64,000 nucleotides of DNA from Lactobacillus agrestimuris (GTDB taxonomy: Bacteria; Bacillota; Bacilli; Lactobacillales; Lactobacillaceae). Of this stretch, positions 34,255 to 48,476 are shown piece after piece (positions within the stretch are counted from its first letter, which is position 1; the number at the start of each line of letters is the position of its first letter). Both the position numbers and the translations under genes were made by a program. The stretch lies in the NCBI RefSeq assembly GCF_943193025.1, contig NZ_CALPCQ010000008.1:1-64000 (forward strand), given 5' to 3'. The notes below the pieces were generated by a model that was not told where the DNA came from, made no database searches, and saw nothing but the letters and a program-made list of their open reading frames with translations.

Positions 34255-34788
34255 CTACTTACTTTTTTTGTCCTTATCACTCTTAGGTGCAAGCATTAAG
34301 AACATTGAACGACCTTCCATCTTAGGCTTGCTAGTTACTGTAGCAATATCTGAAGTAGCTTCAGCCATCTTTTCAAGTACTTGTTGACCTAATTCCTTAT
34401 GAGTGATTGCTCTACCTCTAAAGCGGATTGAAACACGAACTTTAGCGCCTTCTTTAGTAAGGAACTTTTGAACATGTTTCAACTTAGTATCAAAGTCGTT
34501 TCCTTCAATAGTTGGACTTAAACGAATTTCTTTGACACTAACCGTCTTAGATTTCTTACGGGATTCTTTAAGCTTCTTCTGTTGTTCGAAGCGATATTTA
34601 CCGTAATCCATTATACGAGCTACTGGTGGCTTAGCGTTGGGTGAAATTAAGACTAAATCCAGACCTTCATCGCTTGCACGACGTAAAGCTTCGCTCTTAG
34701 TTACAACACCAACTTGCTCACCATCTGCATCAATTAAACGAACTTCGTTTGCACGAATTCTTTCGTTTAAAATTAAATTCCTTGGTAT
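34255..34788 (-). CDS. infC: translation initiation factor IF-3, AUA start codon
   Basis: Keeps the subunits apart and checks the initiator codon. The full protein is 177 residues. In-frame translation runs upstream of the first internal ATG (34611) through the standard N-terminal domain ([14 protein letters not shown] and the [11 protein letters not shown] linker region) to an ATA at 34788. A strong GGAGGTGA site (34802-34795) is six bases before it. A non-canonical start (AUU, AUA or AUC) is a known trait of infC and allows IF-3 to control its own translation. Annotating from 34611 would lose 59 residues. Confidence 0.94.
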
Positions 34789-34802
34789 GACTCTTCACCT
34801 CC

Positions 34803-34927
34803 GTGTTAATTTGAGGACAAGAAAAAGGCGGGATAAGTAGCCCCGCCTTTAATCAACAGAAAATATCGATCAGCCTAGAGGTTAACTTAACTTAGGCGAG
34901 AAGCGGGCGCTTCTTCTTGTTCTCAAC
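34803..34927 (-). promoter_or_regulatory. L20-type autoregulatory leader of infC-rpmI-rplT
   Basis: The roughly 125-base leader contains a terminator hairpin (AAAGGCGGG / CCCGCCTTT at 34850-34824, then T run) preceded by a structured region with complementary GAAGCGCCCGC / GCGGGCGCTTC-like and CTAGAGG / CCTCTAGG-like segments. This is the arrangement of the Firmicutes L20 leader, in which bL20 binds the RNA and favours termination. Read-through reaches the infC Shine-Dalgarno. Confidence 0.8.
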
Positions 34928-34933
34928 TATGAT

Positions 34934-34962
34934 ATTATACCTGCTCATTCTGATAACGTCAA
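34934..34962 (-). promoter_or_regulatory. infC operon promoter
   Basis: Minus strand: -35 TTGACG (34962-34957), a 17-base spacer and -10 TATAAT (34939-34934). A near-consensus promoter directly upstream of the L20-type leader. Confidence 0.8.
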
Positions 34963-34971
34963 GACAAATTA

Positions 34972-35013
34972 AAAGAAAAAGGAGATCACAATAATTTTGT
35001 GTGATCTCCTTTT
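34972..35013 (-). terminator. adhesin gene terminator
   Basis: AAAAGGAGATCACA (34977-34990) and TGTGATCTCCTTTT (35000-35013) form a perfect 14-bp stem, with a T run on the minus strand. It ends the adhesin transcript right before the infC promoter. Confidence 0.85.
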
Positions 35014-35032
35014 CTCATTTTACGCAATTTAG

Positions 35033-38000
35033 TTATTTTTCATCTTTTTTGCGGCGTTTAGCTCCTGCTAGACCTAATAAACTACCAATACTTGCAATTA
35101 ATAATCCAAACATTCCAGCTGAATTAGTATTCGATTCACCAGTTTGTGGTAAACGTTTTGCTTTATCGGCAAGAGAATTCTCATTGGCGTTAGGAACTTG
35201 AATGCCAGCAGCATGAGCGTAAATATCTTCAGCATTAGGTTGAGCGGTATTGTCAGTACGTTTTTCAGGGGAAATAATATCAGAACCTGTATTTGCTGGA
35301 CAATTTGGCTTAGAAGTTGCACTAGAAGCAGCACTACTTGCAACACTTGATGAAGATTCCGAAGTTGCGCTAGAAGCAGCACTTGATGATGATCCTTCGC
35401 TTGATGCTGAACTTGAAGCACTTGAGTCAGCTGATGATGAGCCTTCGCTTGATGCCGAACTTGAAGCGCTTGAATCAGCTGATGATGATCCCTCACTTGA
35501 TGCTGAACTTGAAGCGCCTGAGTCATCTGACGATGATCCTTCACTTGATGCTGAACTTAAGTTATCTTCTGCTTCACTCTTTGCTGCGCTTGCCTCACTA
35601 TCAAAATTAAAGGAATCACTGGCAGCACTTGAAGCAAGGTCGGCATGAGTTTTAGAAGTTTCTTCGTCAATAATTGCTTGACTTGCAGCTATTGAAGCAG
35701 CAGTCGCAGCACTGCTTGCAAGAGAAGCAGCACTTGAAGCTTCACTAGCAAGACTTTCAGCCATTGAAGCTTCACTAGCCTTGTAGGCACTATCAGCTTT
35801 ACTTGCTAAATCACCAGCAATACTTGCTTGTTCACTAGCAATACTATTTTGTTCACTAGCCGTTGATCGTTGAGTTACAGCATCACTGGCAGCACTTGAA
35901 GATACACTTGCGGCACTGCTTGCTACACTAGCTGCTGATTTAGCATTACTTGCGGCACTATTTGCTTTTTCGGCTGCACTAGCAACAACACTATTAGTTG
36001 GATGCTCACTAGCTAAACTTGCTACATCGTCGGCATTACTTTGAGCTGAACTTGATTGACTTGCAGCAGTACTTGAAAGATCAGCTGCACTTTGACTGTA
36101 ACTGCCAGCAGCACTGGCTGCACTGCTTGCTGCTGATTCAGCTGAACTTGTATTAGTATGTGCGTCAGCGGCACTACTTGCGGCTTGACTTGCTGAACTT
36201 GCAGCAATTTCACCTCTAATTGCATCGCTAGCTTCACTCTTAGCCACTTCAGCTGTGCTACTTGCTTGACTAGCAATTTCAGCCATTGAACTTGCTACAC
36301 TGGCAGCACTACTTGCCACACTGGCATGACTTTGCGCTATGGATGCAGCAGTACTTGCAGCACTTTCTGCACTCTTAGCGGCACTGGCAGCGCTGCTTGC
36401 TTTAGCAGCTGCGCTACTTGCTACGCTTGTATCACCTGCAGATGCAGCACTTTCTGCTTCACTCTTGGCATTTGAAGCAAGATCGGCAGCATTCTTAGCT
36501 ATTGCGTCAGCTGAACTTGCATTCTTGTATTCGTCACTTGCTAAACTTGCTGCTTCTGAAGCGGCACTAGTTGCACTTGAAGCAGCAGTCGCAGCACTCT
36601 TAGCAGTACTTGCAGCATTTGATGCTTTGTCTGCAGCACTTGATACGAGTGAATTACTTGGATGGTCACTTGCCATTGAAGCTGCTTCGCTAGCTGTTTC
36701 ACTAGCTTGACTTGCTGATGAACTTGCTGCACTTGTTGAGTCTGATGCAGCACTTTCATCTGAACTTGCTGACTTAGCGGCGCTACTTGCAATACTTGCA
36801 TATGAACTAGTTTGAATTGCTGAACTACTTGTAGCACTTGATGCACTCGATGCCTTATCTACAGCATCACTAGCTTGACTTAAGTTATCTTCTGCTTCAC
36901 TCTTAGCAGCACTTGCTTCACTATCAAAATTAAATGCATCACGAGCAGCACTTGAAGCAAGCTCGGCATGAGTTTTAGCAGTTTCTTCGTCAATAATTGC
37001 TTGACTTGCAGCACTTGAAGCAGCAGTCGCAGCACTGCTTGCAAGAGAAGCAGCACTTGAAGCTTCACTAGCAAGACTTTCAGCCATTGAAGCTTCACTA
37101 GCCTTGTAGGCACTATCAGCCTTACTTGCTAAATCATCAGCATTACTTGCGGCTTCACTGGCAATACTATTTTGTTCACTGGCAGTAGAATGTTCAACAA
37201 CTGCACTGCTTGCTGCAGTTGAAGATACTACTGCAGCACTACTTGCGGCACTGGCAGCTGACTTAGCGTTACTTGCAGCACTATTAGCCTTATCAGCGGC
37301 ACTTGCTACCACACTATTAGTTGGATGTTCACTAGCTAAGCTTGCTACATCATCTGCATTACTTTGAGCATCACTTACTTGACCAGTAGCTGTACTTGAA
37401 AGATCAGCAGCGCTTTGACTGTAACTTCCGGCAGCACTGGCTGCACTACTTGCGGCTGATTCATCTGAAGTGGCGTTTGTATGTGCATCAGCGGCATTAC
37501 TTGCGGCTTGACTTGCGTTACTTGCAGCGATTTCACCTCTAATAGCATCGCTAGCTTCACTCTTGGCAATATCAGCTGTGCTGTTTGCTTGGCTTGCAAT
37601 TTCGGCCATTGAACTTGCAGCACTGGCGGCCTGACTGGCAATACTTGCAGCACTGCTTGCCCTTCTTGCAGCACTTTGAGCAGTACTTTCTGCACTCTTA
37701 GCTACAGCTGCTTCACTTCTAGCTACGCTTGCCGCACTACTTGCTATAGCAGTGTTACCATCAGCAGCAGCTGAATCAGCTGCACTTTTGGCTATATTTG
37801 CGGCATTAGCGGCACTACTTGCTAAATCATCAGCAACTTTTGCAGCATCATAAGCTTCACTAGCAATGCTACTTGCTGAATCTGCATTAGTTTTAGCTAC
37901 ATTTGCTGCACTAGCGGCACTACTTGCACGCTTTGCGGCACTATTAGCCTTGACTGCAGCGCTTGATACTAAGGAATTAGTTGGATGAGCATCAGACATT

Positions 38001-41000
38001 GAAGATACTTCAGTAGCTGTATCACTAGCAGCACTTGCTTGACTGGCTGCTGAATTAGTATTTTCACTAGTTACAGTACTTGAGCTGTTCGCTTCCTTAG
38101 CTGAACTCGAAGCTTGACTTGCATAAGATTTAGTCTTTACAGCTGAAGAATCAGCGGCACTTGCGGCACCACTAGCAATTGCATCATCGACCACATTCTC
38201 CAAAATGTTATTAATTGCTTCACTCTTAGCGGCACTTGCTTGACTTTCAAAGTTCAAAGCATCTTGCGCATAGCTATTGAGAGTTGCAATTGATTTATTT
38301 GCTTCACTTTCATCTACAAGAGCCTGACTGGCAGCACTTGAAGCTACTGCTTCAGCACTTTGTGCTGCACTATTAGCCGCACTAGCTACAGCAGCTAAAC
38401 TGACAGCTGCACTTGCATTACTTGCCTTATATGCAACATCAGCAGCGCTAGCAGCACTATTGGCAAGTTTTGCTTGTTCACTTGCAATATGATCTTGGTC
38501 AGCAGCAATTGAACGTTGAGTTGCGGCATCACTAGTAACTGAGCTTACATAAGATGCTAGACTTGCAGCACTACTTGCGGCTGAACTTGCAGCAGTTGCT
38601 GCACTTGAAGCTTTTGCGGCTGCGCTTGAAACTACTTCATTACTTGCATATTCACTTGCCATTGAGGCTACTTGATCGGCAATAGCCTTAGTATCTTCAG
38701 CAGTATGAGCAACTGAAGTAGATGCGCTATTTGCATTACTATTGTAATCTCTTGCTACACTAGCTGCGCTACTTGCAACTACTTCGTATGAGTTAACTGC
38801 AGTTGAGGCAGCAGAAGCAGATTTAGCAGCTTCACTGGCAGCACTGGCGGCACTTTCACCAACAATTGCTTCACTAGCTTCACTCTTAGCCACTTCTGCG
38901 TCGCTGGCTGCACTTGAGGCAATAGCTTGATATGAAGCAGCTTCACTGGCAGCACTTGAAGCGATTGAGTTAGCAAGGCTTGCAGCTTCACTAGCTACAC
39001 TTGCGGCACTTGAGGCTTTTGCGGCATCTGAGTTAGCAGTTGAAGCGACGCTGGCTGCACTACTTGCAGCACTAGCATTTCCTTCTTTAGCAAAACTTGC
39101 TGCATCACTTGCGGCACTTGAGGCTTTTGCGGCTGCACTACTTGCAGTTTCACTGGCAGCATTTGCAGCCTCACTTTGAGTAGCAGCATCTTGAGCAGCT
39201 GAGCTTGCTACATCTGCGGCACTGCTTGCCCTAGTAGCGGCACTACTTGCAGCTTGGGAATCATTATTAGTTCTAGTTGCTGCACTACTTGCTAAGGAGT
39301 TGGTTGGGTGAGCACTAGCCATTGAAGCGACATCACTAGCGGTAGATGACGCTAAATCAGAGTTGATGCCTGCACTATTAGCATTATTTGAAGCTTTACT
39401 GTTTGCATCAAGAGCTTCTGATGCACTTGATGAAACAGCAGTTGAAGTAGCAGCTGTACTTGCGGCACTCGATTGAGCTTGGCTAGCTTGACTTGCAGCA
39501 TTACTTGCATAGCTTTCTGCTAAAATTGCTTGATCAGCATCACTGGCAGCAACTGAAGCCGCTACACTGGCTACCTTTGCAGCACTAGCATAAGAATCTG
39601 CAGCACTAGCTGCGCTAGATGCACTTTCAGAAGTCTTCTTAGCATCTGATAATAAACTTGCAGCAGTGCTTGCAGCTTCACTGGCAGCTTGACTAGCTAC
39701 ACTTGCTGCACTTGCAGCTGATTGAGCATTAGCGATATCACCTAAAGCGGCATAACTACTTGCGGCTGCACTAGCACTACTTGCAGCGCTGGCGGCACTA
39801 CTTGCCTTAGTTGCTGCATTACTTGCAGCACTTGTTAATGAATCAGCAGTTGAAGCTAAATCTTTAGCTGATTGAGCTTGAGTAGCTGCATTACTTGCAG
39901 CTGTACTTGATACTCCAGCTAAACTCTTTGCACTACTTGCGGCACTAACTACAATTGGATTATCTGAGTAAGAAGTAAGATCAGTACCTAATGAATCTGC
40001 TTGACTTGCGGCACTTGAAGAATATGAATCAGCTTCACTTGCACTTGAGTCTGCAGCACTACTTGCAGTCTTAATATCACTGGCTGCACTATTAATGTCT
40101 GTTTGAGTTTGATCAGTATTTGTCTTGTCAGCAACTGCTCCTGAATTTGCTTGACTGGCAGCTAAACTTGCTGCACTAGCTTGTTCTACATTAGTTTGAG
40201 CTGCACTTAAGTAATCCACAATCTTGTTTGCTTCACTGGTAAGTGAAGTTTGAGCACTTGCAATTGAAGCTAATGCTGCATTAGCAGTTGATTGAGCTAA
40301 GCTTGCAGCAGTTGCAGCACTTTGAGCTTCACTGTTTGCCTGACTAGCCTTGGCAATTTGAGCTTGGGCTTGAGATGCAGCACTACTTGCTAGTGAAGTA
40401 TCACCAGTTGCTTTTGCAGTATCCACAATAGCTGCGTAACTTGCAGCTGCACTAGCTGCAGTTGAAGCTGCAGTACTTGCGGCTGCCGCACTACTTGCTT
40501 GAAGAGCCGCGGTATTTGCAGCCGAACTTGCAAGATCACTATTATCTGCAATTACCTTAGCATAGCTATCTGCATTAGATTTAGCTGTTGTAGCTTTGGT
40601 TAAATTGTCAGCTACAACTTTATTATCCGCATTTGCACTTGACAAATTAGTGAGACTAGTTAAATCAGTTGCTGCGCTAGCAATTTCAGTATTTGCGCTA
40701 GATACACTGTCCTTTGCACTTGAAGCTGCTGAACTTGTTACTGCTTGGTTAGATTGAGCATTACTGGTTGCGCTACTTGCCGCATTAGCTGAACTAGTTG
40801 CACTTGATGCAGCACTTGTAGCAGCTTCTGACTTAAGATCAATGTAGGCAGATGCAGCGCTGGCATAAGCTAAATCAATATCAGCAACTGCTTGTTGAGC
40901 TCTTTGCGCATCAGATTCAGCAGTTGAAGCTGCAAGCTGAGCGGCAGCAGCACTACTGGTTACGGCATTTACCTCACTAGCATAAGATGCTAGCTGTTGA

Positions 41001-43168
41001 GGCAGACTTGCCATGGAGTTATATAAAGTTTGATAATAAGGCGTTTGCATTGCAACTGCTGTATCAGAGGCCATATTATACATTAAATGCGCCATATTAA
41101 CATTCCCAGCGAGAACATTTGCAGCGTTTGTAATAGCACCATTTCTGCTATTATTACCTGGAAGTACTACCCTTGTTGCCCTTGCAACACCACTTGAAGC
41201 TGCATTAATTTTTGCCCCCTGACTGGGAACATCTCCAGTTGCAGTAGATGAGATGTTATATGCACTACTTGCTTCATTAGCATAAGAGGCTAATTGATCT
41301 GGATACTGATCAACTAATTGACTAATTGCATTACTTTTAGTAGCTACTGAAGCGGTAGCACTAGAAGCAGCAGTTTGAGCACTACTTGCAGCACTTGCAG
41401 CACTTGTAATTGTTTCCTTAGCAGCTGCCACTTGAACTTCAAAGAGCAGGATTTGCGCAGCAACTAACCCTTCCTTCTTTGCAAATGCGCTTGCAGCTTC
41501 ACCAATTCCTGCAAGTGCACTTGCTTCATTAGCAAGACTTTGAGCTACCCCAATTGGGCTTGAAGTGCTAGTTTTATCAAGAATTGGTGCCATATTATTA
41601 ATTTGATTATTAATATTTGCAAAATCAGTATTACTGCTTGCAGCGGCACTCAAACTTGCATCCGCCTCACTAGTATTATTCTGGCTTAAAGCTTCAATAG
41701 CAGCAGTTAAATCACTAGCCTTTTGAGTTGCTGCACTGGTAGCACTATGCATAGTACTTTCATCAATAGCTGCATAACTTAACTGTGCGGCTGTTTCACG
41801 AGCTGAACTGGCAACATTGGAGAGACCTACAGCCAAACTAGCAACACTGTCGGCTGCACTAGACAAGGAATCTACCTTAGTTTCCGCAGGCTTTACAGAA
41901 GCGGCAGCACCAATTGGATATCCAGAAACTGTAATACCATTTGGATAGCTACTACTGTAGCTGCTCAATTCATTAGCTACTGAAGTCGCTACTGGTGCAT
42001 TGCTGGTAGCCACACTTGCGATAGAATCTAGAGCAGTAGCTGTTTCACTAATAATGTCTGCCGTTAAACTAGTTGCAGTACTTGCAGCTGAAAGATACTG
42101 ACTTTGAGCACTTTGGACAAAGCTAATAGTATCTTTTGCGTAACTCGCAACTAAAGCCATCGCACTATCAAGACTTGCACTTAAACTTTGTGCCAAACTC
42201 GCTTTTGAATCTACATTTGTCTCATTATTATATTTATCAACGGCACTGGCAATACTTGTAGCGAGGCTACTTGCACTACTTGCTGCTGCAGCTGCACTTG
42301 CCAATGAATCATTAATATAATCCGCAATTGTTATTGGATTTCCGTCGTCGTCTTCACTTTCATTATAAAGATCGGCTAAAGATGCCATATCATCTTGAAC
42401 TGTAGCTGGTGGAAATCCGGTTAAAGTATAGCTTGAATCTGGTCCAATCGTAGAAAGTGAGTTTGTAATTTCTTGATCAAAACTAGAAATTGAATTAGCT
42501 ACACTAGTAGCATTAGACAATGCAGTCGTAGCACTAGATAAATCTGCTTGAGTTGCATAACTTGTAGCAATTGATGCCATCGATTTAGCATTATCAACAT
42601 ATTGTGAAAAATCAGTGGTTTCAGCTTTTGATTCGCCTATTTGATCACTATTTGCTAAGTTATTATTATCAGTAAGAAGACTAGCAGTTTTTACTTCAAA
42701 CGAATTAGTTTGAGTTGTAGCTTCAGCCGTCTTATTTGTATCTGTACTAGTAGCAGCAGTAGTTTCAGTTTCAGTATTCTTTGCTACTTCTTTATGTGCT
42801 AATTCATCTGTATCGCTATTTTGACTAGCTGGAGCGGCAGATTGACTATCTGCACTTGCATTAGCAGCACTTACTTCTTCATTAGCCACTGAATTTGCAC
42901 TTTGAGGTGTAGCAGCTTCACTAGCAACAGTACCTTCACTAGCATGTGAAATTTGATCAGTTATGTGTGAGTCGTTGGCTAGTTCTCCTGCAGCATCAAG
43001 CGTAGCTTGGTCTACAGCAGCTGATTCTGGTTCTTTCACTTCATCAGCATGTACCAAGTCGGTATCATGAGATAAAAAGAAAAATGAACTAATCATCACG
43101 CTGGCTAAACCAACAGATAATTTTCGTAAAGAGAAAATCTCTTTTTTATGTAAGTCTCTTCTAGACAT
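35033..43168 (-). CDS. giant Ser/Ala-rich LPQTG-anchored surface adhesin
   Basis: A 2711-residue wall-anchored protein. The signal peptide (~1-43) has a YSIRK-like motif, F-S-L-R-K-L-S-V-G-L-A-S. A Ser/Thr/Ala/Asn-rich N-terminal part (~44-180) is followed by about 2400 residues made almost wholly of Ala and Ser with scattered charged and Asn/Gln residues, predicted helical. Tandem repeats (S-S-A-S-S-E-G-like) follow at ~2540-2590, then a Pro/Asn region with one Cys, LPQTG at 2673-2677, a hydrophobic span and a basic tail (KRRKKDEK). The start is the ATG at 43168 behind AGGGGAAA; an in-frame TTG precedes it. Two glycosyltransferase genes directly upstream suggest O-glycosylation of the Ser residues. 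The sequence cannot name the binding target. Confidence 0.9.
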   Translation of the reverse strand: MSRRDLHKKEIFSLRKLSVGLASVMISSFFFLSHDTDLVHADEVKEPESAAVDQATLDAAGELANDSHITDQISHASEGTVASEAATPQSANSVANEEVSAANASADSQSAAPASQNSDTDELAHKEVAKNTETETTAATSTDTNKTAEATTQTNSFEVKTASLLTDNNNLANSDQIGESKAETTDFSQYVDNAKSMASIATSYATQADLSSATTALSNATSVANSISSFDQEITNSLSTIGPDSSYTLTGFPPATVQDDMASLADLYNESEDDDGNPITIADYINDSLASAAAAASSASSLATSIASAVDKYNNETNVDSKASLAQSLSASLDSAMALVASYAKDTISFVQSAQSQYLSAASTATSLTADIISETATALDSIASVATSNAPVATSVANELSSYSSSYPNGITVSGYPIGAAASVKPAETKVDSLSSAADSVASLAVGLSNVASSARETAAQLSYAAIDESTMHSATSAATQKASDLTAAIEALSQNNTSEADASLSAAASSNTDFANINNQINNMAPILDKTSTSSPIGVAQSLANEASALAGIGEAASAFAKKEGLVAAQILLFEVQVAAAKETITSAASAASSAQTAASSATASVATKSNAISQLVDQYPDQLASYANEASSAYNISSTATGDVPSQGAKINAASSGVARATRVVLPGNNSRNGAITNAANVLAGNVNMAHLMYNMASDTAVAMQTPYYQTLYNSMASLPQQLASYASEVNAVTSSAAAAQLAASTAESDAQRAQQAVADIDLAYASAASAYIDLKSEAATSAASSATSSANAASSATSNAQSNQAVTSSAASSAKDSVSSANTEIASAATDLTSLTNLSSANADNKVVADNLTKATTAKSNADSYAKVIADNSDLASSAANTAALQASSAAAASTAASTAASAAASYAAIVDTAKATGDTSLASSAASQAQAQIAKASQANSEAQSAATAASLAQSTANAALASIASAQTSLTSEANKIVDYLSAAQTNVEQASAASLAASQANSGAVADKTNTDQTQTDINSAASDIKTASSAADSSASEADSYSSSAASQADSLGTDLTSYSDNPIVVSAASSAKSLAGVSSTAASNAATQAQSAKDLASTADSLTSAASNAATKASSAASAASSASAAASSYAALGDIANAQSAASAASVASQAASEAASTAASLLSDAKKTSESASSAASAADSYASAAKVASVAASVAASDADQAILAESYASNAASQASQAQSSAASTAATSTAVSSSASEALDANSKASNNANSAGINSDLASSTASDVASMASAHPTNSLASSAATRTNNDSQAASSAATRASSAADVASSAAQDAATQSEAANAASETASSAAAKASSAASDAASFAKEGNASAASSAASVASTANSDAAKASSAASVASEAASLANSIASSAASEAASYQAIASSAASDAEVAKSEASEAIVGESAASAASEAAKSASAASTAVNSYEVVASSAASVARDYNSNANSASTSVAHTAEDTKAIADQVASMASEYASNEVVSSAAAKASSAATAASSAASSAASLASYVSSVTSDAATQRSIAADQDHIASEQAKLANSAASAADVAYKASNASAAVSLAAVASAANSAAQSAEAVASSAASQALVDESEANKSIATLNSYAQDALNFESQASAAKSEAINNILENVVDDAIASGAASAADSSAVKTKSYASQASSSAKEANSSSTVTSENTNSAASQASAASDTATEVSSMSDAHPTNSLVSSAAVKANSAAKRASSAASAANVAKTNADSASSIASEAYDAAKVADDLASSAANAANIAKSAADSAAADGNTAIASSAASVARSEAAVAKSAESTAQSAARRASSAASIASQAASAASSMAEIASQANSTADIAKSEASDAIRGEIAASNASQAASNAADAHTNATSDESAASSAASAAGSYSQSAADLSSTATGQVSDAQSNADDVASLASEHPTNSVVASAADKANSAASNAKSAASAASSAAVVSSTAASSAVVEHSTASEQNSIASEAASNADDLASKADSAYKASEASMAESLASEASSAASLASSAATAASSAASQAIIDEETAKTHAELASSAARDAFNFDSEASAAKSEAEDNLSQASDAVDKASSASSATSSSAIQTSSYASIASSAAKSASSDESAASDSTSAASSSASQASETASEAASMASDHPSNSLVSSAADKASNAASTAKSAATAASSATSAASEAASLASDEYKNASSADAIAKNAADLASNAKSEAESAASAGDTSVASSAAAKASSAASAAKSAESAASTAASIAQSHASVASSAASVASSMAEIASQASSTAEVAKSEASDAIRGEIAASSASQAASSAADAHTNTSSAESAASSAASAAGSYSQSAADLSSTAASQSSSAQSNADDVASLASEHPTNSVVASAAEKANSAASNAKSAASVASSAASVSSSAASDAVTQRSTASEQNSIASEQASIAGDLASKADSAYKASEASMAESLASEASSAASLASSAATAASIAASQAIIDEETSKTHADLASSAASDSFNFDSEASAAKSEAEDNLSSASSEGSSSDDSGASSSASSEGSSSADSSASSSASSEGSSSADSSASSSASSEGSSSSAASSATSESSSSVASSAASSATSKPNCPANTGSDIISPEKRTDNTAQPNAEDIYAHAAGIQVPNANENSLADKAKRLPQTGESNTNSAGMFGLLIASIGSLLGLAGAKRRKKDEK
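35382..35557 (-). repeat. 48-bp tandem repeat encoding a 16-residue Ser/Asp-rich unit
   Basis: A 48-bp unit starting CTTGATGC on the plus strand recurs at 35400, 35448 and 35496, with a partial copy at 35544 and a degenerate one before 35400. Each encodes 16 residues of the type A-S-S-S-A-S-S-E-G-S-S-S-A-D-S-S in the adhesin. Near-identity of copies points to recent slippage or unequal crossing-over. This is the wall-spanning part next to the LPQTG anchor. Confidence 0.9.
35570..41305 (-). repeat. higher-order 660/663-bp coding repeat (1323-bp dimer period) in the adhesin
   Basis: A codon for His or Tyr in an (H/Y)-P-x-N-like motif followed by x-V-V-x-S-A-A recurs at plus-strand positions 36002, 36662, 37325, 37985, 38648, 39308 and 39968 (residues 2389, 2169, 1948, 1728, 1507, 1287, 1067), with more degenerate forms near 40631 and 41303. 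Spacings are 660, 663, 660, 663, 660, 660, 663 and 672 bases. Alternate units are most alike, so the last six form three copies of a 1323-bp dimer. Type A units carry (S/N)-A-S-M-A-E-S-L; type B units carry G-(D/N)-T-S-V-A-S-S at the same place. Confidence 0.85.
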
Positions 43169-43254
43169 CAAAATTTCCCCTGTTCTTTATCTTAAGTAAA
43201 TTTATTTATCTATCTAAAATAAATTAACATATTCAACAACTAAAAATAAAATAT

Positions 43255-44742
43255 TTAGTCTATAAATTTATTCCATTGCTTCATGAAGTTAGCTTCAGAA
43301 TTTTCTTTAGCTGTCTGAATTGCTCCTTGAGAAAGACTTGCGTATTCTTTACTATCACCCAAAAGCTCTAAAACTTTATTAGCCAAACCAACTGGTGTTG
43401 TCTTAACCACATTAAAGCCATTTACTCCATCTTTAACTAAGTTATTTCTAGTGTAGTTAGCAGCATAAGTTACAACTGGAATACCGCTTGCTAAAGCTTC
43501 AAGCATATTCATTCCGAAACCTTCACTACGACTAGCATTTAAGAATAAAGTTCCATCTTGTAAAACTTGCTTAGCTGGATCATAGGCTACAAACTCAACT
43601 TTATCAGTTAAATCTAACTTTTTAACTAGATCTTTGAGTTCTTTTTCATATTCACCACTGCCAAAATATCCTTGTAATTTCAGCTTAGCTTCAGGCAACT
43701 TATTACTGATATGTTTAAAGGCCTTGATCACATCGTCGGTATGCTTTTCAACAGCCAAACGACCAACATATACTAAATTAATTTCTTGGCTTAATTCTTT
43801 TGCCTTACCAGTTTTGACATAGCTATCAGGAGCAGATACCACTTGACTTTGCGCAGTCGTTAATTTGGCTACTTCATCAGCTTGATCTTGTGTAGGCAAA
43901 ATTACATAATCAAATTCTTTACCATTTTCACCATTCACTGCGCGTTCGTAAACATCCATTAACCCTTGTTGTGGACGGTTATAGTCCTTAAATGGCACAC
44001 TGTGAAGATAAGAAATTTTCTTGTCCGCATTTTCAACATTTAAGACTGAACTATCTAAAGTTCGACGGTCAGAAATAAATGTACCCGGTTCTTGGTTGTT
44101 AATTTCATTAAGGAAGAAGGTAAAGAGTTGATCTTCAGTTCTAAATTGCCAATCTCTTCCCTTATAATTAATTAACTTCCACATGGTTGGTAGTACTTTA
44201 TCACCAATGTACATATGGGTTACTTCAATTGCTGGGCTACCATCTTGGCGTAAGTATTGCTGCATTGCAACTGAACCATCTGGATGGTAAGTTTCGACCA
44301 TTGACTTAAATCCACGCCAGTCCCAATATTCTTTGACTGCAGTTTGGCCAAGTGAATCATAATATTCAATCGATCCAACTAGTCCAACAGTAGCTGGCAT
44401 AACGCGAATTTCACCAATTTTTTTACCTTTATATTCGATATTAGAATAGTTATTATCTACTCCAACAATGTGGTAATCAGTGAGTGGAATACTATCAAGC
44501 AAACGTAAGGATTGTTCCTTGCGTCTAGTTTTAACTGTGCCTTGGAAGTAATCATACATGTTGATTACATCTTTTTGTCTTAAGCCATGCTTCTTAATTT
44601 CATTGCTGAGCATGCGGTTATAGTTACGCAGTAATAAGACAGCGCGCTTGTCATTATTATTAAAAGCATTCAATCTTTCAAATTGAGAGAATTCAGTTCC
44701 TGAATTAAAAGTAAATACGTTTTCTCCTACTAAATAAATCAT
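43255..44742 (-). CDS. GtfA-like GT4 glycosyltransferase, second of the pair
   Basis: A 495-residue cytoplasmic GT-B glycosyltransferase of family 4. The N-terminal half (residues ~1-230) is a GtfA/TarM-type DUF1975-like domain (F-N-S-G-T-E-F-S-Q-F-E-R and M-Y-D-Y-F-Q-G). The C-terminal half (~310-490) has the YVGRLAVEKHTDD donor segment and the E-x7-E catalytic motif S-R-S-E-G-F-G-M-N-M-L-E-A. It overlaps the upstream paralogue by four bases (ATGA), indicating coupled translation, and ends 84 bases before the adhesin. It is a paralogue of its neighbour, not a streptococcal GtfB-type chaperone, because the catalytic motif is intact. The likely task is adding sugars to the adhesin; wall teichoic acid is the alternative. 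Confidence 0.85.
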   Translation of the reverse strand: MIYLVGENVFTFNSGTEFSQFERLNAFNNNDKRAVLLLRNYNRMLSNEIKKHGLRQKDVINMYDYFQGTVKTRRKEQSLRLLDSIPLTDYHIVGVDNNYSNIEYKGKKIGEIRVMPATVGLVGSIEYYDSLGQTAVKEYWDWRGFKSMVETYHPDGSVAMQQYLRQDGSPAIEVTHMYIGDKVLPTMWKLINYKGRDWQFRTEDQLFTFFLNEINNQEPGTFISDRRTLDSSVLNVENADKKISYLHSVPFKDYNRPQQGLMDVYERAVNGENGKEFDYVILPTQDQADEVAKLTTAQSQVVSAPDSYVKTGKAKELSQEINLVYVGRLAVEKHTDDVIKAFKHISNKLPEAKLKLQGYFGSGEYEKELKDLVKKLDLTDKVEFVAYDPAKQVLQDGTLFLNASRSEGFGMNMLEALASGIPVVTYAANYTRNNLVKDGVNGFNVVKTTPVGLANKVLELLGDSKEYASLSQGAIQTAKENSEANFMKQWNKFID

Positions 44743-46301
44743 TTTCTTACTGCGCCTCCCAATGTCTTTTCTGCATCTTTAATTAAATCTTGCCATGCAT
44801 TCCACACATTCTCATCTGAGAATCGTTCACTAGTTTCATATGAGCCATCGCTAAGTTCTTGCATTAACTTCTTATCCTTAAAGATCTTGAGCATCTTCTC
44901 AGCCAAAGCCTTGTAGTCACCAAAGTCAACAATGTAACCATTTTTGCCATCAACGACGATATCATTTGGACCATAGTTAACGTCATAAGTTACACCGATT
45001 ACACCATGTGATAAGGCTTCCATAACTGCTAAGTTAAATCCTTCCATTCTAGAAGTTAAACCAAAGACTTGAGCATCTTTTTCAACCTTGGCAATATCAT
45101 TGGTATAGCCCTTAAAAGTTACAACGTCTTCAAGATTTAATTCCTTGATTAACTTTTCAATCTTGCGTTTTTCACCATAATTATTTGAAGAATCGGCATA
45201 ACCATAAAGATCTAAAGTTACTTCTGGAACTTGATCATGAACAATTTTAACTGCCCGGACTAAATCATCTAAACGTTTTTCATAGGCAATTCGGGCAACG
45301 GCGATTACTTTACCAAAAGTACGTTTATCCATAGCAACGTGGTCTTCATTTAAGGTTTCATTATCAACAATCCCAACTGGGATGGTAAACATTTTGGCCT
45401 TAGGTTTGAATCTTTCAATCACATCATTTGTTTGACGTTGAGTTGCTGAAACCACAGAAGAATAACGATCAAGATTTGCCAAAGCATATTCATAGTTATT
45501 ATTAACAATTGAATGAAGTGGATCTTGGGCATCCCCCGCTTGTGAATTATGTAAGTGCATAACTGTATAAGCTGGTTTCTTCAATCTAGTTAAAGCACCA
45601 TCTGCCAAAAGCGAACGGTCAAGGATAAAGATATTATTACCTTTTTCATTAATTCGATTTAGGAAATGTTCGAATAATTCATCAATGGTATCAAAAGTAT
45701 GAATTTCACCATTCTTTTCTTGCAACCACCAACCGGTTTTAACTAACTTGTGGTGAATATCAAACTTATTGAATGTTCTAACTACAGTACGACCATCAGG
45801 AGTTAACCATTCTTCATTACCAATTTTATTATCGGGTGTATACCACTGAACTAATGATCTAAATCCACGTGAATCATAATGATCAACGCGGTAAAGATTG
45901 CCGTATTCATCAAACAATTCAGTTGATACTACTTGACGATCATGAACTGGATCATAATTCACACGAGCAACTAATTTCCCATTAGCTGCATTGGTAACTA
46001 AATAACGATTTTTATCTGTTTCATCTTCTCGGTTGGTATTAACAACGCCAAAATCCAAATCATCAACTGTTAAGTTCTTGGCAGATACCTTAGTTGCATC
46101 TTGGAAATAATCAAACATTCCTAATAAGCTATCATCATCTACCCCAGATGCATTTGCAGTTTGGTGAAGAGTACGATTCCAATCACGTGCAATAACTTTA
46201 GCTGGTTGATTATGATTTTTAAATAAATTCAATCTTTTTATCTCTGCATGTTCAATCCCAGACTTATGATCTGGCATTCCAAAATTAATAAAATATATCA
46301 T
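44739..46301 (-). CDS. GtfA-like GT4 glycosyltransferase, first of the pair
   Basis: A 520-residue family 4 glycosyltransferase. The N-terminal segment (F-G-M-P-D-H-K-S-G-I-E-H-A-E and M-F-D-Y-F-Q-D, then N-L-T-V-D-D-L) lines up with streptococcal GtfA, which starts O-GlcNAc transfer to serine-rich adhesins. The C-terminal domain (~320-510) has a V-A-R-I-A-Y-E-K-R-L-D-D donor segment and the E-x7-E motif R-M-E-G-F-N-L-A-V-M-E-A. An AGGAGAGAG site precedes the ATG. With its neighbour it resembles S. aureus SdgA/SdgB: two GT4 paralogues beside a Ser-rich LPXTG protein with no SecA2. Donor sugar unknown. Confidence 0.87.
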   Translation of the reverse strand: MIYFINFGMPDHKSGIEHAEIKRLNLFKNHNQPAKVIARDWNRTLHQTANASGVDDDSLLGMFDYFQDATKVSAKNLTVDDLDFGVVNTNREDETDKNRYLVTNAANGKLVARVNYDPVHDRQVVSTELFDEYGNLYRVDHYDSRGFRSLVQWYTPDNKIGNEEWLTPDGRTVVRTFNKFDIHHKLVKTGWWLQEKNGEIHTFDTIDELFEHFLNRINEKGNNIFILDRSLLADGALTRLKKPAYTVMHLHNSQAGDAQDPLHSIVNNNYEYALANLDRYSSVVSATQRQTNDVIERFKPKAKMFTIPVGIVDNETLNEDHVAMDKRTFGKVIAVARIAYEKRLDDLVRAVKIVHDQVPEVTLDLYGYADSSNNYGEKRKIEKLIKELNLEDVVTFKGYTNDIAKVEKDAQVFGLTSRMEGFNLAVMEALSHGVIGVTYDVNYGPNDIVVDGKNGYIVDFGDYKALAEKMLKIFKDKKLMQELSDGSYETSERFSDENVWNAWQDLIKDAEKTLGGAVRK

Positions 46302-46472
46302 TTTCTCTCTCCTAACATCTATTGTTCTTGATTCAGCTTAAACATAAAGATGTGTAATTAGTTCAATTGTATTAATTTATAGTAACCCTATTTTATTTAA
46401 TTTACACTAACTTATATTTTACCGATATTAAAAGTTAAATGCAAAATATATGCGTTTGAACAAAATACAACC

Positions 46473-46506
46473 AAAAAAAGTAGTTCTCTGACAGAGAACT
46501 ACTTTT
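46473..46506 (-). terminator. thrS terminator
   Basis: AGTAGTTCTCTG and CAGAGAACTACT (46479-46503) form a perfect 12-bp inverted repeat with almost no loop, followed by seven T on the minus strand. It separates thrS from the glycosyltransferase operon. Confidence 0.85.
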
Positions 46507-46524
46507 AATCATTTAAATTATCAT

Positions 46525-48459
46525 TTAGTTATTCTTACGTGAGTAGGACTTAACATCAGAATCAATTTCATTGATAAAGTCATCTAAACTCTTAGATATT
46601 TCTTCGTCAGTACCGTAACGACGTACGTTAACGTTATTTGACTTCATTTCTTCATCACCTAATACTAAAGTATATGGTACCTTTTGAGTTTGTGATTCAC
46701 GAATCTTGTAACCAAGTTTTTCGTTTCTATCATCAACTTCAACTCTAAATCCACGCTTAGCAAGTTCAGCTCTTACCTTTTCAGCGTATTCGCCATGAGC
46801 TTCATTGTTAACTGGGATAATCTTAGCTTGAACTGGAGCAAGCCAAGTTGGGAAGGCACCCTTGTAAATTTCAGTAAGGTAAGCAATGAATCTTTCCATA
46901 GTACCAACAATACCACGGTGAATCATAACTGGACGGTGTTCTTCACCATCTTTACCTACGTAAGTCAAACCGAATCTTTCTGGAAGCATGAAGTCAAGTT
47001 GGATAGTTGACATAGTTTCATCATTTCCAAGAGCAGTCTTAGTTTGAATATCAAGCTTAGGACCGTAGAATGCTGCTTCACCTTCTGCTTCAACGTAATC
47101 AAGACCAAGATCATCCATGGCTGCCTTAAGCATTGATTGTGAAGTTTCCCACATTTCGTCATTTGCGTAGTACTTGTCGGTGTTCTTTGGATCACGGTAT
47201 GAAAGTCTGAAGTAGTAATCGGTAATATCAAAGTCCTTGTATACGTCCATGATTAACTTCAATACCTTAGCAAATTCTTTACGAATTTGATCAAGAGCAA
47301 CGAAAGTGTGACCATCATTCAAAGTCATTTCACGTACACGTTGAAGACCTGACAAAGCACCTGATTTTTCGTATCTGTGCATCATACCAAGTTCGGCGAT
47401 ACGGATTGGTAATTCACGGTATGAACGAATGTGGTGCTTATAAATTTGGATATGTGAAGGACAATTCATTGGACGAAGTTCAAGCATTTCGCCGTCACCC
47501 ATGTCCATTGGTGGGAACATATCATCACGGTAGTGTGCCCAGTGACCTGAAGTCTTGTATGCATCAACATTCATAAGTACTGGAGTGTATACGTGTTCGT
47601 AGCCATCGGCAACTTCTTTATCAACGATGTAGCGTTCTACAACACGACGAATGGTTGCACCCTTTGGCATCCAGTATGGAAGACCTGCACCAACTTTTGG
47701 ATCAACGAAGAAGAGATCAAGATCACGGCCAATAGTTCTGTGGTCACGTTCTTTAATTTCTTGACGACGCTTAAGATCAGCCTTTAAATCAACTTCTTTA
47801 AAGAATGCTGTACCGAAAATTCTTTGAAGCATTGGGTTTGATGACTTACCCATCCAGTAAGCACCAGCAACTGACAAAAGCTTAAAGTGCTTAACTTTAC
47901 CAGTGTTAAGCATCAATGCGTCAAAGCCAAAGTCAATAAAGTCACCAAGCTTGTAGGCATCAACCATTTCACCTTCTTTTTCAAGAAGAGCCATCTTGTA
48001 ATCGTCATCTTTGAATTCTTCTTCAAGTTCTGACTTAGCAATTAAAACGTGTTCGATCTTTTCGCCATTCTTAACAACTTTTTGCATTGCCTTTTCAAGT
48101 TCTGGTAATTCAGTAATCTTGATTTGGTCTTCTTTATCAGTATCTACGTAAAAGCCGCCATCGTCAGCTACATGGTCACCCAACTTAAGTTCTGGGTATT
48201 TACGTTTTGCAACAGCTTCAAAAATAAATGCAGCAGTTGCACGTAAAACATCAGCAGCTTCTTCATCCTTATCAGTAAGGATTGCTACTTCACTATCCTT
48301 ATCGATTTTATAATCAAGTGGCTTAATAACGCCGTCAACCTTACCGGCAATTGCTGCCTTACCAAGTGAAGTGGCAATACTATGTGCAACTTCAGCAACA
48401 GTTAAACTATCTTTAAATTCTTTTTTTGAGCCATCTGGCAAAGTAATTGCAAAACTCAT
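46525..48459 (-). CDS. thrS: threonyl-tRNA synthetase
   Basis: Charges tRNA-Thr. It has 644 residues from the ATG at 48459, seven bases after GGAGG; the longer TTG frame begins inside that site. Domains are TGS (residues ~1-62), the editing/SAD domain (~65-230), the class II catalytic core (~240-535) with motif 2 [11 protein letters not shown]-x-R-V-R and motif 3 [13 protein letters not shown], and the anticodon-binding domain (~540-644). The SAD metal motif of typical enzymes (HxxxH) is not evident in residues 65-230, so editing capacity is uncertain. A T-box leader precedes it. Confidence 0.96.
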
Positions 48460-48476
48460 AAAAGTTACCTCCAAAA

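Follow-up and report, generated by a model that had tools for sequence, protein, structure and literature searches.

Alternating Ser/Ala repeat units and a predicted helical-bundle stalk in a putative wall-anchored adhesin of Lactobacillus agrestimuris

The stalks of bacterial surface proteins pose a puzzle: as set out in PMC8201768, they seem to need near-identical repeats for length variation, whereas large multidomain proteins usually keep neighbouring domains less than 50% identical. How might one gene accommodate both? The question is raised by an open reading frame (ORF) at 35033-43171 on the reverse strand of the window, by which we mean the whole 64,000-nucleotide stretch analysed here (L. 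agrestimuris, assembly GCF_943193025.1, contig NZ_CALPCQ010000008.1, positions 1 to 64,000). The listed start is TTG; an ATG one codon later, at 43168, with AGGGGAAA on its 5' side, gives a protein of 2711 residues. Residue numbers follow the listed TTG frame (one higher than from the ATG), except in the head-versus-stalk comparison of synonymous divergence, which is numbered from the ATG. A first-pass annotation described the Ser/Ala-rich body of this protein as a higher-order repeat, with units of 220 and 221 residues alternating between types A and B at an exact dimer step of 1323 bases, and suggested that an (H/Y)PxN motif at the unit boundaries could be a hinge between long helices of a stalk. 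That interpretation is partly supported. We put at roughly 0.65 the probability that the gene encodes a wall-anchored adhesin whose stalk is a series of long three-helix bundles of alternating type and whose array grows dimer by dimer; such a protein would comprise an N-terminal head, a long rod-like stalk, a Ser-rich wall segment and an LPXTG anchor.

All nine markers of the first-pass annotation lie in the frame where it placed them: at 36002 (residue 2390, HPTNSVV), 36662 (2170, HPSNSLV), 37325 (1949, HPTNSVV), 37985 (1729, HPTNSLV), 38648 (1508, YASNEVV), 39308 (1288, HPTNSLA), 39968 (1068, YSDNPIV), 40631 (847, NADNKVV) and 41303 (623, YPDQLAS). Eight units, the last partial, follow from residue 847 at spacings of 221, 220, 220, 221, 220, 221 and 220 residues. 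The step is exactly 1323 bases along 36002/37325/38648, along 36662/37985/39308 and from 39308 to 40631; unit 2 departs from it, because 39968 lies 1320 bases from 38648. The last two markers had been regarded as older forms of the repeat; the one at 40631 does open unit 1, but the one at 41303 begins nothing that profiles recognise as a unit, and its gapped identity to the units is 20.9-31.8%. Profile searches with unit models returned eight units (E <= 1e-10, each also above 25 bits and near full length), the first of them ending at 40633.

Compared with itself, the whole protein has by far its highest identity at a lag of 441 residues (34.3%; second is lag 7, with 26.5%), and over residues 847-2539 identity at lag 441 reaches 51.3%; none of 1000 heptad-block shuffles exceeded 24.5% at this lag, and 100 shuffles compared over lags 200-899 peaked at 26.1%. 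Within units 3-8, ungapped self-identity is 63.0% at 441 residues, 18.2% and 17.0% at 440 and 442, 32.2% at 220 and 28.3% at 221. The A units (3, 5 and 7) are 50.0, 51.8 and 70.0% identical to one another and the B units (4, 6 and 8) 51.1, 56.0 and 89.3%, as against 37.7-48.0% for the nine A-B pairs; units 1 and 2 are older and neither clearly A nor clearly B. The peak at 441 residues and the excess of A-A over A-B identity had been proposed as tests of the pattern, and both are present. The longest exact DNA runs in the window agree, at 106 bp between dimers and no more than 14 bp between neighbours. Block copies far more alike than neighbours (63% versus 28-32%) define higher-order organisation, and spacing, lag identity and the identities within and between types (50-89% like, 38-48% unlike) together confirm both the higher-order repeat and its alternation. 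As a dimer array it is modest in size, with about three copies per type.

Table 1. Features of the adhesin gene and of the adjoining glycosyltransferase genes in the window.
Feature	Position	Strand	Basis or remark
YSIRK/LPXTG surface protein gene	35033..43168	-	2711 aa from ATG
YSIRK-type signal, residues 9-33	43073..43147	-	PF04650, E 1.2e-8
N-terminal head, residues 181-845	40637..42631	-	Pfam: nothing at E <= 0.1
Unit 1, 221 aa, marker NADN, oldest	39971..40633	-	spacing, identity, tree, profile
Unit 2, 220 aa, marker YSDN	39311..39970	-	spacing, identity, tree, profile
Unit 3, 220 aa, marker HPTN, type A by identity	38651..39310	-	tree pairs it with unit 2
Unit 4, 221 aa, marker YASN, type B	37988..38650	-	spacing, identity, tree, profile
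Unit 5, 220 aa, marker HPTN, type A	37328..37987	-	spacing, identity, tree, profile
Unit 6, 221 aa, marker HPTN, type B	36665..37327	-	as unit 5; inside AlphaFold2 model
Unit 7, 220 aa, marker HPSN, type A	36005..36664	-	as unit 5; mostly inside AlphaFold2 model
Unit 8, type B, partial; stops about 150 residues in, at predicted end of helix C	35555..36004	-	spacing, identity, tree
Ser-rich 16-residue repeats, 48 bp x 3.6, stalk-to-anchor segment	35384..35558	-	repeat search
LPQTG sortase anchor, residues 2668-2710	35042..35170	-	PF00746, E 1.3e-8
GT2, glycosyltransferase of SdgB/SdgA/GtfA kind	43255..44742	-	NF047881 177 bits, cut-off 800
GT1, glycosyltransferase of SdgA/SdgB/GtfA kind	44739..46301	-	NF047880 259 bits, cut-off 800

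The same order recurs in relatives. At E <= 1e-20 the protein is present in four of 61 genomes of the genus, namely its own, one taken as Lactobacillus rodentium (G009), a Lactobacillus metagenome-assembled genome (G040) and a genome in a single contig (G005), whose version of the protein has 3948 residues; Limosilactobacillus fastidiosus also carries it. Setting aside parts missing at contig ends, undetermined bases and a frame break in L. rodentium, the order of spacings is identical in these relatives, barring one 217-residue unit in G005, and the A/B order is common to four species in two genera. The L. rodentium gene (L074 18276-18369) is in two overlapping frames, split inside unit 7, which may reflect a sequencing error or a real break. 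With one genome per species, unit numbers are 6 in L. fastidiosus, 8 in the window, 8 in L. rodentium and 11 in G005. In a tree of 40 units, as in the selection counts, an 87-residue partial unit of the metagenome-assembled genome was omitted and truncated units were shortened to 70-150 residues. In this tree units 1, 2, 3, 4 and 5 each cluster with their positional equivalents in the other species. The type B units (4, 6, 8 and 10) form one group with support of 95/83, and the type A units (5, 7, 9 and 11) one with 82/85, short of the level that the program regards as strong; unit 3 joins unit 2 (98/95) and is hence an A unit by identity, not by tree. In G005, units 7-11 are separate from units 7 and 8 of the other species and look like additions specific to that genome. 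Because tree positions are shared among the first units and these late units are not, the array seems to grow near its wall end while its first units are retained. The tract most alike at the 1323-bp lag in the window, residues ~1809-2095 versus 2250-2536, reaches the end of the array.

Ratios of nonsynonymous to synonymous substitution rates (dN/dS, by the Nei-Gojobori method) for orthologous units are 0.12-0.48 between the window and L. rodentium (8 units; the top value comes from 70 codons) and 0.12-0.26 between the window and G005 (6 units). Recent like paralogues have dN and dS of 0.07 and 0.43 (units 6/8) and 0.25 and 0.90 (5/7) in the window, and of 0.08 and 0.61 (7/9) and 0.20 and 1.14 (9/11) in G005, the dS values near or above 1 being close to saturation and therefore rough. 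For older like pairs in the window dN is 0.50-0.57; unlike pairs have 0.68-0.80 among units 3-8 of the window and 0.45-0.72 among units 5-11 of G005. Judged by these rates, the units are under purifying selection. Likening the array to alpha-satellite DNA, as had been suggested, thus fits as an analogy for block-wise growth but not for an array that is short and whose units are so constrained.

The unit itself has a wider distribution. As had been recommended, unit profiles were searched more widely: of 24 other Ser/Ala-rich proteins, 9 hold near-full-length units above 40 bits, and up to 137 bits, where 20 heptad-shuffled copies of each protein score at most 21 bits; matches in the remaining 15 were weaker, shorter or partial, or absent. 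A sample of 201 genomes from the family yielded units (E <= 1e-10) in 16 of them, spread over 10 of the 40 genera sampled. Pfam matched only the signal and the anchor in the whole protein (E <= 0.001) and none of 21 units (E <= 0.01), and by these profile searches the unit is a domain of about 220 residues without a Pfam model, often found in very large surface proteins. The Ser-Ala-175 model TIGR04319 (SerAla_Lrha_rpt) is similar in its Ser/Ala composition; 10 of the 21 units match it (E <= 0.01, the lowest E being 2.3e-10), below the model's cut-off where a score was shown, and on these scores it is a distant relative. Assignment to that family was rejected, with 19.5 bits for the protein, 32.9 for unit 6 and 27.9 for the best match in the L. 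agrestimuris genome against a cut-off of 120, and with a period of 175 residues as opposed to 220/221 and a dimer of 441. The lone genome of the 201 to exceed the TIGR04319 cut-off (G108) also has 220-residue arrays; one of them (L135) has tandem 220-residue units that repeat every 660 bp at about 97% identity and, being homogenised, is the opposite case to the dimer array.

What fold might such units adopt? An alignment of the 21 units, which come from at least six genus labels, mostly begins at column 1 with [YHN]-P-x-[ND]; column 77 holds Gly (or Pro) in 16 of the 21, and the first ~150 columns contain one two-residue insertion, in one row. In the window this second break lies about 76 residues past PxN and reads G-D/N in units 1, 2, 3, 5 and 7 and A-S-E/N in units 4, 6 and 8. 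Heptads with a period of 3.49-3.52 keep a steady register in columns 5-76, 80-150 and 160-221 and shift at both breaks; counts over the units place Ala at the positions named a, d and e and Ser at b, c and f. AlphaFold2 was given window residues 1850-2330 with seven more sequences (two stretches from the window, three from L. rodentium and two from L. fastidiosus); the metagenome-derived sequence with undetermined bases, kept in the first alignment, was left out of both folding alignments. The resulting model (mean predicted local distance difference test, pLDDT, 96.5; predicted template modelling score, pTM, 0.60) is made of long helices of 71, 72 and 143 residues, in keeping with the helical stalk first proposed, and breaks at just two places, PxN and the second site, both in the A unit (with G-D at the latter) and in the B unit (with A-S-E). 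In structural comparison, model residues 248-465 and 29-245 each fit long helical bundles, so that the 143-residue helix would be common to two of them; the packing was read from these comparisons, not from the model coordinates. The stalk is thus predicted to consist of tandem three-helix bundles with helices of about 72 residues and a shared long helix. A Foldseek search of the model gave nothing significant, VIA-align matches to trypanosome receptors are, at the level of a model, a likeness of shape only, and the absence of spectrin and Ebh from the best 50 matches listed in either structure search is no evidence against likeness to them. An earlier count of three helices and three breaks per unit, drawn from the 21-unit alignment, was discarded, since the model runs unbroken through the variable columns 152-167.

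In the model, then, each domain would be an antiparallel bundle of helices about 11 nm long, with PxN as the tight A-B turn, G-D/N or A-S-E/N as the turn from B to C, and each helix C continuing as helix A of the next bundle. Such a continuous helix would make the array a stiff rod, of about 11 nm per unit and about 80 nm for the window. It would have Ala in its core and Ser outside. The first-pass hinge takes a different form here: PxN does break the helix, but it is not the sole turn, nor a hinge between helices of ~220 residues. A jointed, extended stalk of the latter kind, with some 33 nm per unit, can appeal to PxN or a variant at each unit start, a break in the model, and to the single 143-residue helix that follows the second site; the second break and register shift at one column across the 21 units, together with a model that folds as bundles matching solved ones, make it quite improbable. 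We also consider a parallel coiled-coil dimer or trimer, of the type in M protein or trimeric autotransporter stalks, in which the breaks would be skips. Its clean heptads, and a top PDB sequence match of the unit profile to the coiled-coil autotransporter BpaC (7o23, E 1.2e-8), speak for it, although that match may be compositional. Ala-rich cores at a, d and e suit close antiparallel packing, the breaks occupy two fixed places, and a single chain is predicted as bundles at high pLDDT (the model being of a single chain only); we therefore hold the coiled coil to be unlikely.

The serine content invites another comparison. Each of units 2-7 is 23-29% Ser by residue count, and a glycosyltransferase pair adjoins the gene, as would befit a glycan-coated, mostly unfolded brush like that of classical serine-rich repeat proteins (SRRPs). 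Yet the units lack the SxSx dipeptide pattern, their heptads are strict, and both the Ala positions and the breaks are conserved across genera; we consider an unfolded brush very improbable. For the bundle rod, the pair would probably glycosylate serines on the outer face. A GT2 homologue (E <= 1e-30) is found in 15 of the 16 unit-bearing genomes as against 95 of the 185 others (Fisher p 0.001), and in 11 of the 16 it lies within ~10 kb of a unit array. Helices of ~72 residues are exceptionally long for bundles, and if the fold is true these would be bundle rods of exceptional helix length with a serine face open to glycosylation.

Within the predicted rod the two types differ at a definite place. 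The array end, the A/B length difference and length differences between genera all fall near columns 145-167, halfway along the shared helix. Among 34 units measured (those under 216 residues or with undetermined bases were skipped), the heptad stripe runs in register through this point in the 221-residue units (+0.10 to +0.37 residues, 14 units) and is off by -0.51 to -0.85 in the complete 220-residue units (16 units); these ranges omit three last units that enter the Ser-rich tail and the one 217-residue unit (-0.04). The offset restates the one residue that A units lack, but it locates the effect: B units would carry the stripe in register through the shared helix, and A units would have one residue fewer there. 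Whole half-heptads (220.5 = 63 x 3.5) were rejected as a rule for unit length, related arrays having units of 223, 219, 221, 111 and 99 residues.

The alternation also bears on how the gene changes length. Recombination can depend on long exact DNA matches. In G005 these reach 26 bp between neighbours, 74 bp between dimers and 35 bp at a three-unit lag; the old array of L. fastidiosus has no more than 28 bp at two units and 19 bp at one. A survey of domains above 25 bits and near full length, at least three per protein, gave 13 arrays in the family, five of them homogenised (neighbours 70-97% alike on average) and two diverged without pattern; neighbours in G005 are up to 63% alike. L110 and L136, counted among them, belong to a single giant Ser/Ala ORF of 13,654 residues in another genus (G126:C1). 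In L110 a ~221-residue unit recurs in five-unit blocks of 1105 residues (spacing 221, 220, 221, 221 and 222), whose copies are up to 100% identical; mean identity is 74% at five units versus 41% between neighbours, and exact runs reach 479 bp at five units and do not exceed 14 bp at any of the eight lags of one to four units that were compared. The block pattern in L136 is weak (47 versus 42%, 17 bp). An ORF of 16,840 residues with the same genus label (G092:C2, L114), a Ser/Ala giant, has its top lag at 1995 residues (roughly nine 221.7-residue units), with 52 versus 41% identity and exact runs of 35-36 bp at lags of both two and nine units, and may be built of nine-unit blocks. Where recombination depends on long exact matches, it should move whole blocks or dimers, and the dimer could be the step at which this gene most easily lengthens or shortens. 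We posit that the array lengthened toward its wall end as two-unit blocks of 1323 bp were duplicated, and that the dimer would have become the favoured step because neighbours share almost no exact DNA and like units do.

Does the alternation have structural meaning, then? A chance two-unit duplication could have fixed the recombination step, after which the types simply drifted, an account wholly compatible with the bundle fold. It draws on the restriction of long exact DNA to the dimer step in the window and to five units in L110, and on the other arrays, which manage without alternation. Recent like paralogues with dN far under dS, an A/B order that is the same in four species, and a difference in length placed inside the shared helix count against it, although drift with ordinary purifying selection on every unit could also yield low dN, kept order and a length difference; we give it somewhat less than even odds. 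A more ambitious proposal, that unlike neighbours (~38-48% identical) limit misfolding while identical DNA at the two-unit step (five, perhaps nine, elsewhere) permits whole-block change in length, is put forward tentatively and is on balance unlikely. Dimer and pentamer arrays offer a natural test of the puzzle with which we began.

How do the predicted bundles relate to known stalks? PMC7587433 describes the giant staphylococcal proteins Ebh and Embp as tandem three-helix bundles of an A-module and an S-module, which share a continuous helix and form a rigid surface rod. The window stalk would resemble them in its predicted tandem bundles with a shared helix (71/143 residues; pTM 0.60, a prediction only). 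Their FG-repeat has 125 residues per two bundles, however, as against ~220 per bundle and Ser/Ala helices of ~72 residues here, and membership by sequence was rejected, no FIVAR, GA or DUF1542 family matching the window protein (E <= 0.001) or the 21 units (E <= 0.01). We would see the array as a predicted new form of helical-bundle rod, a class already known from Ebh and Embp. Among the papers listed by our literature search, none treats higher-order repeats or helical stalks in such adhesins, and any statement of novelty has that scope.

With SRRPs the protein shares its Ser content, an LPXTG anchor (PF00746) and the glycosyltransferases adjoining the gene; the G005 relative has in addition a Pectate_lyase_5 domain, and the binding region of the Limosilactobacillus reuteri SRRP has a pectate-lyase-like fold (PMC6973325). 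It differs in its YSIRK signal. We rejected membership, as the stalk is made of Ala/Ser heptads without SxSx, the only Ser-rich array being the short 16-residue one near the wall, and as SecA2/SecY2, normally co-located in SRRP loci, sit on another contig. The L. agrestimuris genome holds SecY2 (356 bits) and SecA2 (1048 bits), both over their cut-offs, on contig C24, the adhesin gene being on C8; a true SRRP system may thus exist in this genome too. Periscope proteins (SasG, Rib and SHIRT stalks) likewise have a head, a repetitive rod and a wall anchor; their repeat number varies between closely related strains, and here it differs between related species. The window units differ in being predicted helical, in neighbours 45% identical on average and in a likely two-unit length step. 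The Giant1-5 proteins of Apilactobacillus are also very large, repetitive Lactobacillaceae surface proteins, of which Giant5 is predicted to be helical and is Ser-rich, according to PMC12863079; their repeats have 50-366 residues and their ends are of SH3b type, and the likeness noted here is one of description.

Turning to the locus, infC and rplT lie downstream of the adhesin gene, and upstream come GT2, then GT1, overlapping and in the same direction, and then thrS. Among named genomes, GT2 is closest to that of L. rodentium DSM 24759 (97% identical). The pair and the adhesin thus stand between thrS and infC-rplT in the window (34255-48474) and have other neighbours in L. fastidiosus (L073 6778-18168), as if they had moved as a cassette. 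L. fastidiosus is among strains isolated from rodents, a pheasant and a primate, according to PMC8346765. The Pectate_lyase_5 domain of the G005 relative (L020 2952-4750; E 1.4e-14) precedes its head and is absent from the window protein; an AlphaFold2 model of the window head (residues 185-860, three sequences) had a pLDDT of 41.9 and was not used. Between the window and L. fastidiosus, dS is 0.09-0.10 over head residues 181-600 and 0.23 over residues 601-845, compared with 1.31 for the signal peptide, 1.40 for GT2 and 0.60-1.31 for units 1-6. Because synonymous divergence of ~0.1 in the head is so far below that of the signal, GT2 and the units, the head appears to have been transferred between genera recently, and its near identity in two genera hints at a common binding role.
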